In this document: positions 8,448-48,488 of the stretch, in pieces | Numbering within the stretch: position 1 is the first letter of the stretch | How the letters are laid out: each line of letters starts with the position of its first letter | Source: Persicimonas caeni | GTDB taxonomy: Bacteria > Myxococcota_A > Bradymonadia > Bradymonadales > Bradymonadaceae | Direction: 5' to 3' | NCBI RefSeq assembly: GCF_006517175.1 | Contig: NZ_CP041186.1 | Location: 7,653,074-7,717,073, forward strand | DNA length: 64,000 nt | Translations under genes and position numbers: made by a program | The notes under the pieces: generated by a model | What the model was told of the DNA's origin: nothing | Database searches by the model: none | What the model saw: the letters and a program-made list of their open reading frames with translations, nothing else

Positions 8448-8459
8448 CCGGGATTCGGC

Positions 8460-8530
8460 GCGAGGGCATCCATGGCTTCAATACGAGGGCAAGATGCCCC
8501 TCACCGATTCGACGAGGGCCAAATGCCCTC
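8460..8530. repeat. Two to three units of the GAGGGC...GCCC(T)C palindrome
   Basis: GAGGGCAAGATGCCCCTC (8485-8502) and GAGGGCCAAATGCCCTC (8514-8530), with a partial unit GCGAGGGCATC near 8460. They belong to the same family as the seven-unit array at 11309-11512. They lie between the DUF4142 gene and the 3' end of the MYXO-CTERM gene, so the family brackets that gene on both sides. Confidence 0.75.
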
Positions 8531-8538
8531 GCGCCGAC

Positions 8539-11223
8539 TCATTTCGCACCAATGTGCAATGAGTAGCGTCTTCGCAGCGCGAACGCGGCCAGCACGCCCA
8601 AGAGTGTGACGGGCGCGCCTGGCCCCGGGTCTGGCTGGGAGTGTCGGCACATGCATCCGCTGGATGTCATCACGCCCCGCCCTCGCCTCTCTTCGACCCT
8701 GGCGTCGTTAGCGTCACCTCCGGCCGTATCGAGCGGATTGCCGACATCCGGGTTGCCGAATCCGGGGCGGCCGGGACCGGCGTCGACGGCGCGCGGCGAT
8801 TGGCACACGCCGTTGGCGCAGCTCCGTGAAGCGCAGTCGACGTCCAATCTGCACACCTCGCCCGCCTCACCCGGCAAGCCGATTGCCTGGACGTACAGCG
8901 GCGCTCTCGTCCGCTGCGGCGATGCCGCCACGCCCGAGTATGCAACGAAAAAGCCGCCCTGATCTCGGATGGCGAATGCGTCGACCGGTCGTTGGCTGCC
9001 GTCGACCACTGGTGCGAGGGGGGCATCGTCGAGCAGTTGCCAGCGAGAGTCGAGGCGTACCACCCCGGTTACGTTTGAGGTGGCTCCAACACGCAAAGTG
9101 GCGAGCATGGCCCGACGTCCGTGGGCCTGCTTGGGCACCCCGAGGCGTGCGATGGTGTCGGCGTCGTAGGTAGTCAGGGTCTGGAAGTCGCCGTCTTCGG
9201 TGACTGTCCCCAACCGCCACAGACCGCCGTCGGGCGCGTCGCTCGACTCGCGCCACATCGTGGTAACACCCTCCTCGGTCACGCCCAGTTCGAACGCGTC
9301 GATGGAGTCGGCTTCGACCATGTGTCGCGCGAGATGTTCGCGAAAGGTCCACGGGTGCGATGGAGGTGAAAATGCGTCCGACAGCATAAACGTCGAAAAC
9401 TGCACCACCGATTGGACGTTGTGTCGCCCCTGTTGCCCATGTTGAGCGACGACACAGTAGGTGTCGGTACAGGCGATTCGAACGTCGGGGTCGTAGACGT
9501 CGTCGACGACGGCGCGCCTCACTTGGTCACCATCCCTCAAAGCGAACACGAGAATGACGGTGTCGGTGCTGTGAGGGGCAAGATAAGCTGCGACGCCCAC
9601 ATGCTCGGAGCGTGCGACGTCGAAGAATCGCAGCTCTCCCTCGACTCGGTCGACGACCTCGAGCGTGCGTGCCTGGAGGCCTGCGACGCAGTCGTAGAAG
9701 TGGACGACGTCGAGACGCCGCTCGCTCTTGCGACTCCACGCCACATAGGTCTCGTTGTCGCGATCACACTCGACCCTATCCTCACCTGAAGCCTCGTCTG
9801 GAAATCCGAGGCCATCTCGGACAACCGGCGCGCCTGTTGCCGACAGCGTGGTCCCGAACGCGGCGGCGTAAGCAGGGTGGTTGGCCTCCGCCCATGTCAA
9901 AAGCGGGGCATCGCCCAGTTCAAAAAAGGCGACCTGCCGGATGGTGTTTGGCATGTACGTGTAGATTGGCAGTTCGTCGAGCATTTCGCCCGTAGAAGCC
10001 AAGTGGGCGTCCCTAGCGAACAAGTTGTCCCTTTGTACGCTGCGCAGCCCGGCGCCATCGTGGTCGATCGCGTCGACGGCATGGTAGCCGTGGTTAGTGA
10101 GCTCGAGCGTGTGAGACACGCCCAAGGTGTCGTCGGCGGCGAGCCTGCGAAAGCGACCATCGAGCGCGATGTCAGCCTGCAAGGGACTCGCCCGTGTGCG
10201 GCCGGTGACTACCACCAGAAAGCTGTCGCCGTGTGCCAGCAGACGCACGCGCCCCATAAAGGAGCCGTAGTCGTAAAAGATATCTGCAGCAGCTTCGAAG
10301 GAGAACGCCTCGAGCGGCGAGTGCGACCACTGGCCATCGGCTTCGACCGCGCCGACGAATACCTTATGGTGGCCGTCGCCGGTCTCTTCGGCCCACCCCA
10401 ATCGGCACGATCCGTTGGCCGAGCATGCCTGAGAGATGCCCGTCCAAGTGGGCGACATCGCAGGGAGCGGCGTCGGCGTCGACGCAAAGCTCTTGGTCAG
10501 CGGGTCGCCTCGAAGATGGACGTACCCATCATCGGCCTCGCCGAGGACGACGACTTGGCTGCCGTCGAAGTCGACGGCGTGCAGGTGCAGCGCCTGCTGA
10601 CTCGTCAAAACATCAGCGACTTCGCTTTCGGGCGCCCCGGCGTCGTCGATCCAGCGCGCTCGCACGATGCGCCCCGCCACTCCGCTGTACTCCCAGACCA
10701 CCACGTAGCCCGCGCCCGCCTTCGAGACGAGTGGCTTCGAGCAGGCGGTCGAGGGACCAACGCCGTCTACAGCGAAAACCTCAGTGGGCGTACCTTGTGC
10801 CGCCCCATCGTCCACGGAAATCTCTTGGGACCAGACGGAGCCGTTTTCGTCGCACCAGGCCACGACGAACTGGTCCTCGACGAGGCTGACGGAAGCGACC
10901 GGGTCGCGCGGATCGGGGAGGTTGCCCAGAAAACTCGGCTCGACCACTTGTTCAGCGGGGTTGCGGCGGAGCACGCCATAGTGCAACTCGTCCGGATAGC
11001 CGCTGGAGATGACCGCGCAGGTGCCGTCGTCGGCGCAAGCCATATCGAGCGAAAGCGCAGGACGGAGGAAAGGTATGGACTTCGCCTCGCCCACCTCGAA
11101 CGCTTGCCCAGCCCGCAGCGGTGGGCGGGCCTGAGCCGGCGGGCAGAACACATGGGCGCTCACCGCACAGATCGCTGCGGTGAGCAGCATGGTGAACTGT
11201 TGATTGGCTCGGGTACGAAGCAC
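8539..11223 (-). CDS. Large secreted MYXO-CTERM protein of unknown function
   Basis: An 894-residue protein with a signal peptide (LLTAAICAVSAHVFCPPAQA), a long beta-rich body with WRESS, TWAEANHP and GVVRLDSRW type segments, a CRLDVDCASRSCANGVC motif, a Gly/Asp/Pro linker and a MYXO-CTERM-like tail (SSGCMC, hydrophobic helix, RRRYS). Such tails direct proteins to the cell surface in myxobacteria. The start is taken as GTG at 11223: GGGGGG precedes it and it gives the signal peptide a basic n-region (VLRTRANQQ); ATG at 11190 is the alternative. The open frame continues further upstream only because the 30-bp repeat array has no stop in that frame. Paralogue of the broken gene at 5819-7282. 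The body may be a beta-propeller, which I cannot verify by eye. Confidence 0.85.
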   Translation of the reverse strand: MLRTRANQQFTMLLTAAICAVSAHVFCPPAQARPPLRAGQAFEVGEAKSIPFLRPALSLDMACADDGTCAVISSGYPDELHYGVLRRNPAEQVVEPSFLGNLPDPRDPVASVSLVEDQFVVAWCDENGSVWSQEISVDDGAAQGTPTEVFAVDGVGPSTACSKPLVSKAGAGYVVVWEYSGVAGRIVRARWIDDAGAPESEVADVLTSQQALHLHAVDFDGSQVVVLGEADDGYVHLRGDPLTKSFASTPTPLPAMSPTWTGISQACSANGSCRLGWAEETGDGHHKVFVGAVEADGQWSHSPLEAFSFEAAADIFYDYGSFMGRVRLLAHGDSFLVVVTGRTRASPLQADIALDGRFRRLAADDTLGVSHTLELTNHGYHAVDAIDHDGAGLRSVQRDNLFARDAHLASTGEMLDELPIYTYMPNTIRQVAFFELGDAPLLTWAEANHPAYAAAFGTTLSATGAPVVRDGLGFPDEASGEDRVECDRDNETYVAWSRKSERRLDVVHFYDCVAGLQARTLEVVDRVEGELRFFDVARSEHVGVAAYLAPHSTDTVILVFALRDGDQVRRAVVDDVYDPDVRIACTDTYCVVAQHGQQGRHNVQSVVQFSTFMLSDAFSPPSHPWTFREHLARHMVEADSIDAFELGVTEEGVTTMWRESSDAPDGGLWRLGTVTEDGDFQTLTTYDADTIARLGVPKQAHGRRAMLATLRVGATSNVTGVVRLDSRWQLLDDAPLAPVVDGSQRPVDAFAIRDQGGFFVAYSGVAASPQRTRAPLYVQAIGLPGEAGEVCRLDVDCASRSCANGVCQSPRAVDAGPGRPGFGNPDVGNPLDTAGGDANDARVEERRGRGVMTSSGCMCRHSQPDPGPGAPVTLLGVLAAFALRRRYSLHIGAK

Positions 11224-46518: not shown

Positions 46519-46858
46519 TTTGGTGCTCCATCAAGAGAAAACTTCCATCTCGACGAACGCCCTGCCTGGCTCTGCTCTGTCCGACAATGCATGACGTTGT
46601 CGTGCGTTTTTAGACAGAGGGATCCCGTGAGCGCTTGGCCTACGCCCGAAACCAGGCCAGACAGAGAGCACTCTTTGGCCCTGATTGAGGGTTTTAGGCT
46701 CCTTGCGCTCCGATGCAAACCGGATGGCAACGCCCCCACAGGGTGTCGTCATTTGTAGTCCAAGCTTGCAGGCTGGCAGCGAGAAGTCAAGGCTCTTCTG
46801 AAAGCAGGGTATAATCGGAGACCATCGGTAGAAGGGATATTTTCTTGAGCAAGAAAAA

Positions 46859-46935
46859 ATGGCAGCATCTCCTTGCCGAATTCACGAAACTCAAGAGCGG
46901 TGTTACCAGCACGCGCTCTAAGGAGATGCTGCCAT
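46859..46935 (+). promoter_or_regulatory. Perfect 16-bp inverted repeat covering the transposase ribosome site and start
   Basis: ATGGCAGCATCTCCTT (46859-46874) and AAGGAGATGCTGCCAT (46920-46935) are exact inverse complements, 45 bases apart. The right arm contains AAGGAG, the Shine-Dalgarno sequence, and the first two bases of the ATG at 46934. A transcript that includes both arms would hide the ribosome site in a stable stem. Confidence 0.9.
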
Positions 46936-48271
46936 GGACGGACAATATCGAGAGGCGATCGCAGAGGCCAGCGCTATTTTGGCAGGCGCCATGTTGGAGG
47001 ACTCAGACACACTCATTGCGCAAGGAAGAAAGCTGGTTCTGAAGGTCAAGAGGGTGTTGTGGCCGCTCGGATGCGTGTTGGTTCGCACGCTGCTTCGACA
47101 ATTGAAGGCCAAGCTTATCAAGGAGGCGAAGCAAAGAGGTTTGACCGTCGAGAGGCGCCGAGAAGTTTGTTTCAAGATTTTGTTTGGCCCCATTCCCGTC
47201 GAGTCGGTCTATATGTACGACCGCGACAGCAACGAAGGCTATCGGCCTCTCAAGGAGCACTTTGGCGTGGTCGGACGCGGCTACAGCGACGGCGTCGAAC
47301 GAGCGCTCACCGAGTTTGGCATCGAGAAGTCTTTCGGACGAGCAGCCGCGCAATTTGAAGAGCATTACGGCTGGGAAGTTGGGCGCACCAGGGTGCTCAG
47401 ATTGACCGAGAAGCTCGGTGAGCGTGCCGAGGTGTACCTTCAACAACGGTGTAAGCAAGGCGAAACACGCTATTTGAGCCCCGATGCGACCGCAAACAAG
47501 GCAGCCACGATGGTCACCAGCCTTGACGGCTGCATGATTCGAACCGGGAAGATGATGACCGCCAAACAAGCCGCCCAGCAGGCCGAGGAAGAAGCCGTTG
47601 CTCGGTATAATGCTTCTCTCGAGCCTGACAAAGTCGTGCGTACCGAGGCCTGGAAGGAAGTGCGAACCGGTCTGGCGCGAAAACCCGGCCAAGTCGAGCC
47701 GACCTACGTGTGTCGGCGGGGAAGCTACGACGAGGGCTGTCGACAACTCTTTGGAGCTGCGGGCTTGGAGGGGCTGGGTTATGACACGAAGGCGCTCGGC
47801 TTGATCGACGGGGCAAATGGGCTCAAAGAAGCCATGGAGATGTCGTTTGCTGACCTCCAGGTCATCCTCGAGCCCAGCCACCTGCGCCACCACTTCTGGG
47901 AGACCAGCAAAGCGATGGGACAAACCGAAGAAGTCGGCGAGCAGTGGATTGACGACCATTTCGAGTAGATCGCTCATAGTCACGGGCTTAAAGTCGTGGC
48001 CGAACTACAGTCTGAGAGCGACCGGCGCTCGACCGACGGACCGACCCCAGCCAGCGAGCGAGTCGACCGGCTCGTCGAGTACCTTCGCCGCTTCATCAAC
48101 TGCGTGCACTACAAAGAGTACCGCAAGAAAGAGTGGCCCATCGGCTCGGGCGAAGCAGAGGCCGCACACCGCTACATCCCGCAGGAGAGACTCAAGATCT
48201 CCGGCGCATGCTGGCGCGAAGAAACGCTCAATCCGATGCTCGCGCTACGAGTCGCCCGCGCCAACGGATGA
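46934..48271 (+). pseudogene. ISKra4-like transposase interrupted by an in-frame TAG
   Basis: One frame of 446 codons broken only by TAG at 47966-47968 (codon 345). DDE-type features: Asp in RYLSPDATANKAATMVTS, Asp in LGLIDGANGLKEAMEM, and after the stop the C-terminal acidic site in KKEWPIGSGEAEAAHRY followed by PQERLKISGACW, the typical ISKra4 ending. The third catalytic residue lies beyond the TAG, so the truncated product should be inactive unless the stop is read through. The ATG is 8 bases after AAGGAG. Family assignment rests on the GSGxxE pattern and length; other DDE families with WPIGSG are possible. Confidence 0.82.
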
Positions 48272-48488
48272 TGGGACGACTTCTGGCAATCTGAACACGC
48301 GGCTCGTGCCGCTTAACCGATCACCATGGAGCACACCCCTGAAAGCAGCGCTCGTCGACAGAATCGAAGAGACACTCCCACGATCCTTTTGACGTACTCT
48401 CTTCACCTGCGTATGAGTCTTCATCTGCGCATGAATTTGTGCAGCACGGTCACAAGGCGAATCTCACGCAGCCAATTTGGAGCCCCTC

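Follow-up and report, generated by a model that had tools for sequence, protein, structure and literature searches.

Within the window, the 64,000-nt stretch of Persicimonas caeni DNA analysed here, an ISKra4-type insertion sequence (IS) of 1532 bp was found on the forward strand at 46807-48338. This span was assigned because the element has terminal repeats and is flanked by an exact 9-bp target-site duplication, CTGAAAGCA, with its left copy at 46798-46806 and its right copy at 48339-48347. The left end reads GGGTATAATCGG and agrees with GGGTGTGTAAAG, the left end defined for a relative from its two identical copies in genome G755, and the right end in reverse complement reads GGGTGTGCTCC..GTGATCGG (GGGTGTG..GTGATCGG). 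Both ends carry GGGTRTR and, together with the short duplication, they have the form expected of ISKra4-type elements. Members of the IS200/IS605 family, by comparison, possess an HUH tyrosine transposase and have neither terminal inverted repeats nor target duplications, which separates them from the element in the window with its ISKra4-type transposase, terminal repeats and 9-bp duplication. In the left terminal repeat, TATAAT (46810-46815) could be a chance -10 sequence; it was rejected as the native promoter, lying within the terminal repeat where relatives have GTGTGAT, and appears peculiar to the window copy.

The transposase frame, delimited by its profile match and by the intact relative L005, occupies 46934-48316 on the forward strand with its original stop codon TAA at 48314-48316. 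It is interrupted by the in-frame stops TAG (47966-47968) and TGA (48269-48271), and the frame is open at the place of this TGA in L005, whose intact transposase of 479 aa shares 63-64% identity with that of the window. The ISKra4 profile NF033572 was the best match for both transposase pieces of the window, which the TAG separates (69.4 and 70.4 bits), and the intact L005 protein scored 161.3 bits with this profile versus 42.1 bits with that of ISLre2; against the curated cut-off of 205, L005 falls under, and L043 (206), L131 (219.5) and ISSri1 (357.7) fall over. Judged by these profile matches, the transposase is a member or a near relative of the ISKra4 family (p-MULT4), and the window copy is a decayed member, a pseudogene that has no intact transposase. 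One further 5′ fragment, L002, sharing 82% identity, is present in the same genome. As the copy is a pseudogene, the function of its features must be read from its relatives.

At the transposase start, two 16-nt arms on the forward strand, ATGGCAGCATCTCCTT (46859-46874) and AAGGAGATGCTGCCAT (46920-46935), are 100% complementary and enclose a loop of 45 nt (46875-46919). The right arm contains the Shine-Dalgarno (SD) sequence AAGGAG (46920-46925) together with the A and T of the ATG start codon (46934-46936), and the left arm would be the anti-SD strand, a role consistent with its complementarity, the predicted fold and the arms of 17 relatives. The coordinates thus bear out the earlier note, which had described the arms as exact complements and placed AAGGAG and the beginning of the ATG in the right one. 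Folding of the RNA 46850-46960, which that note had proposed, gave the 16-bp stem, with a minimum free energy (MFE) of -43.2 kcal/mol versus -25.2 ± 3.1 kcal/mol for shuffled sequences (z = -5.9; 0/200 shuffles as good) and with 16/16 arm pairs present in both the MFE and centroid folds. The same stem was predicted when the RNA begins at the left end of the IS, and an inner hairpin in the loop (46894-46919) is stacked on the right arm in the predicted fold. With loops of 3-100 nt allowed, no second perfect 16-bp repeat occurs in the 64-kb window, and the chance expectation for such a repeat, from first-order Markov shuffles, is 0.017 per 64 kb. A search for known RNA families in Rfam returned no match up to E = 1. 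Elsewhere in the window, the only other long non-palindromic inverted repeat of such spacing lies at 8452-8540 (18 nt, 94% complementary, loop of 53 nt). A 7-bp match was also seen between TCTTGAG (46843-46849), upstream of the left arm, and CTCAAGA (46891-46897) in the loop; by eye, this extra pairing is 4-6 bp or missing in relatives, and it was set aside as probably a chance match.

A hairpin at the transposase start was found in ISKra4-type elements of Bradymonadales, Poribacteria and other phyla, and in those of cyanobacteria and Streptomyces. The bearers include L002, L005, L006, L008, L009, L010 and L018, as well as L043 (Poribacteria), L054 and L060, nine related Poribacteria elements, and L144, L163, L062, L074 and L078 (a set including L131-L158). 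It is also present at the annotated starts of ISSri1, two further Streptomyces elements and two Nostoc/Nodularia elements. Viral contigs yielded a single fragment only. One rule was applied to all open reading frames (ORFs) alike, namely an SD-bearing start codon and a duplex between an upstream stretch and the start region, compared with shuffled upstream sequence. Where several SD-bearing starts were possible, the one with the strongest hairpin was taken, for controls as well; on this basis, a start hairpin at p ≤ 0.02 was obtained for 21/44 transposase ORFs versus 3/80 control ORFs in the same loci. No hairpin was found in ISCasp2, ISCasp3, ISOni1, ISOni2, one Nostoc carneum element and several of the 44 tested transposases. 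Because ISCasp2, ISCasp3, ISOni1 and ISOni2 have no such repeat, the hairpin, as far as sequence comparison goes, is widespread but not universal in ISKra4-type elements. Relatives without the repeat had been named beforehand as evidence against sequestration; these four are such relatives.

Some of the relatives carry annotations or frames that deserve comment. L218 and L219, from Nostoc and Nodularia plasmids, are named ISLre2 by NCBI and have the hairpin; L218 scored 116 bits with the ISKra4 profile versus 31 bits with that of ISLre2, and on this basis the label looks wrong, or the two elements may be intermediates. In L023 (1495-1560; G006:C866), a one-base shift in an A-run separates the frame of the hairpin ATG from that of the remaining transposase, which may reflect decay, an assembly error or slippage.

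Comparison with other ISKra4 copies, also proposed in the earlier note, showed that the arms co-vary. Among 17 distinct arm pairs, aligned by anchoring at TGG:CCA, 90% of the pairs are standard, and at 8/13 pair positions both partners have changed. The covariation score is 0.425 versus 0.169 ± 0.022 for shuffles (0/500) and at most 0.195 with the partner slid, figures that are inflated by kinship, as relatives within one clade are not independent. Own arms pair at 11.8/13 positions versus 9.75 for foreign arms, with 0/20,000 permutations as good, and in the window clade alone the values are 112 for own and 99.3 for swapped arms (0/20,000 permutations). Furthermore, L054 has a GTG start and, in its left arm, ACGGC, not ATGGC, a matching change which indicates that the pairing tracks even the start codon. 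The low score with a slid partner and the two-sided changes make selection on the pairing appear real, and these alignments argue for a pairing kept by selection acting on single-stranded nucleic acid.

These data bear on two alternatives. The repeat could act as DNA and not as an RNA structure, by binding a protein or by contributing to the end that the transposase binds, and its position 50-130 bp inside the left end, close to the terminal repeat, would fit such a role. We consider this highly improbable: the letters of the arms vary between elements while complementarity is maintained, the loop ranges from 18 to 58 nt, and the right arm follows the SD and the start codon, the GTG start included. 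Alternatively, translation of a small ORF from or through the left-arm ATG could open the hairpin. Such a frame has 20 codons in the window and 28 codons in L002, but only 5-14 codons in L005, L018, L006, L009 and L008, and it is absent in L043, L054, L158, L162, L141, L060 and others. With length, frame and presence varying among relatives, a leader peptide starting at the left-arm ATG or at TTG 46845 was rejected as a candidate and is already disfavoured to the point of being very unlikely. We also dismissed a conserved peptide, W-Q, read across the left arm, since it arises only from the paired DNA and is lost in L054.

The left arm has a second property that may explain how the element's own mRNA escapes the hairpin. 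In the 17 aligned left arms, GG, A5 and T9 are invariant and T1 is nearly so, a G replacing it in a single arm; these conserved bases fit the pattern TGn-yAnnnT that is critical to an extended -10. In the window, the left arm contains the candidate extended -10 TGG-CAGCAT. Among sigma70-like promoters, TTGnnn-17-TATnnT scores best in the nine Poribacteria elements; its -10 lies in the left arm, and a start is predicted just 3′ of it. In the Streptomyces group, the best promoter consists of GTGACC or TTGAGG separated by 16 bp from TAGATT or TAGAGT; these hexamers bracket the left arm, and transcription would again begin in the loop. Of 30 elements, which were chosen for having the hairpin, 22 have a best sigma70-like site from which transcription would begin in the loop, versus 9.4 expected from shuffles. 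Outside the window clade this holds for 19/20 elements versus 5.9 expected, in at least two registers, and within the window clade for 3/10 versus 3.5 expected, which is chance level. A strict scan of 46700-47000 returned no sigma70 promoter, and sigma70-like scoring gave two weak candidates on the forward strand, TTTTCT-17-CAGCAT (46840-46868), at chance level in the window clade, and the alternative TTGAGC-17-TCTCCT (46845-46873).

These promoter-like sites also bear on a constitutive form of sequestration as in IS200, in which, with the promoter 5′ of the left arm, all transcripts would hold the hairpin and translation would always be low, with escape by rare breathing, by an RNA or protein helper, or by a ribosome coming from upstream. 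The chance-level loop promoter in the window clade, the empty strict scan and the inner hairpin stacked on the right arm are all in its favour, and such working is described for IS200 (PMC12594629; PMC3196728). Against it stand the loop starts in 19/20 elements of the other clades and the retention in the left arms of the bases critical for an extended -10. We regard it as unlikely on the whole, though clearly more plausible than either a leader peptide or a DNA-level element, and it may apply in the window clade because the loop promoter there is at chance.

Predicted opening energies are consistent with a start in the loop. In the elements chosen for having the hairpin, the median predicted cost of opening the SD-ATG region is 17.5 kcal/mol for read-through RNA versus 6.1 kcal/mol for loop-start RNA, with 27/27 in the same direction; for the window, the predicted costs are 21.5 and 8.3 kcal/mol, respectively. 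From these energies and the promoter-like sequences, the own mRNA of the window element would start near 46875, and RNA from this position folds no better than shuffled sequences (z = 0.5). A start inside the loop had previously been put forward as evidence against sequestration; this is the wrong way round, since an IS10-like system needs a loop start. Such a start supports the IS10-like model because only outside transcripts then hold the left arm.

Together, our data suggest, with a probability of roughly 0.7, that the repeat serves as a fold-back lock on translation of ISKra4-type transposase mRNA, with the own mRNA starting in the loop. A transcript entering from outside through the left end would carry both arms, the 16-bp stem is predicted to hide the SD and the start codon, and translation of the read-through mRNA would be blocked. 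The own mRNA most likely begins 3′ of the left arm, in the loop, as promoter-like sequences of relatives suggest, because the DNA of the left arm is overlapped or straddled by the own promoter; lacking the left arm, it would be translatable. Transposase would then be made from the element's own weak promoter and not from neighbouring genes, and the benefit would be protection. The fold persists in many distant relatives despite changes in its sequence, and for this reason the hairpin is probably a real safety catch against accidental switch-on by neighbouring genes. The sequestration of the ribosome site, as claimed in the earlier note, is accordingly supported by folding, by recurrence in ISKra4-type elements and by strong covariation. 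Its likeness to IS10 fits most other clades, with their promoter-like sites starting in the loop, and is less certain for the window clade, where the loop promoter is at chance. The window copy, now a pseudogene, is probably a fossil that formerly worked in this way.

We further consider it an even bet that the same short DNA is put to dual use across the family, being part of a promoter or its spacer in the DNA and the anti-SD strand in read-through RNA, such that own mRNA would be free and foreign mRNA locked, with at least two promoter/arm registers among clades. Termination of antisense transcripts that exit the element might be a further function of the hairpin, because, in the antisense direction, TTTTTTC follows the arm and many relatives, though not all, have an A-rich stretch 5′ to the left arm; in the window, a terminator scan placed this terminator-like short stem and TTTTTTC at 46853-46878 on the reverse strand, directed out of the left end of the IS.

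The ISKra4 group corresponds to p-MULT4 of the prokaryotic Mutator-like transposases, for which the parts consulted of the defining study report insertion upstream of sigma-A promoters and, in ISMich2, -1 frameshifting (Guerillot et al. 2014, PMC3942029). The same parts contain no mention of a start-codon hairpin. The earlier note knew of no such case for ISKra4-like elements, and our search of the open literature, with subscription papers and ISfinder/TnPedia outside its scope, likewise found no prior report for the family and no paper with both ISKra4 and Shine-Dalgarno. If the lock is real, covarying fold-back locks in a Mutator-like family over several phyla would point to a general strategy, and they would provide a simple search rule, a start-codon inverted repeat whose outer arm bears a promoter. 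The hypothesis can be tested directly in elements that are already named and sequenced, ISSri1 of Streptomyces rimosus among them.

Protection of transposons from accidental activation is best known in a few enteric elements. In IS10 (Tn10) and IS50 (Tn5), fold-back of the RNA protects the transposase start from outside transcripts. The ISKra4-type elements share with these an inverted repeat that has its outer arm close to the terminus and its inner arm across the ribosome site, and their own mRNA would likewise be free of the outer arm. They differ in their transposase, which is Mutator-like and not of the IS4 type, in an outer arm that is overlapped or straddled by the promoter, and in arms that covary over many elements. 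In IS200, a stem-loop in the 5′ UTR of the own mRNA hides the ribosome site (PMC12594629; PMC3196728). The ISKra4-type hairpin similarly occludes the SD, whereas IS200 has a tyrosine transposase and its stem on the own mRNA, and the promoter-like signals of most ISKra4-type clades would leave the outer arm out of the own mRNA. In ISPpu9 of the IS110 family, a 5′ UTR structure of the own mRNA limits translation of tnp, and an antisense small RNA opens the fold (PMC8450116). Limited transposase translation through a 5′ UTR structure is predicted for ISKra4-type elements as well; unlike in them, the fold of ISPpu9 sits on the own mRNA and is opened by a small RNA. The hairpin is real and conserved, and it probably represents a known regulatory principle in a family for which we found no report of it, the probable twist being an outer arm that doubles as promoter.
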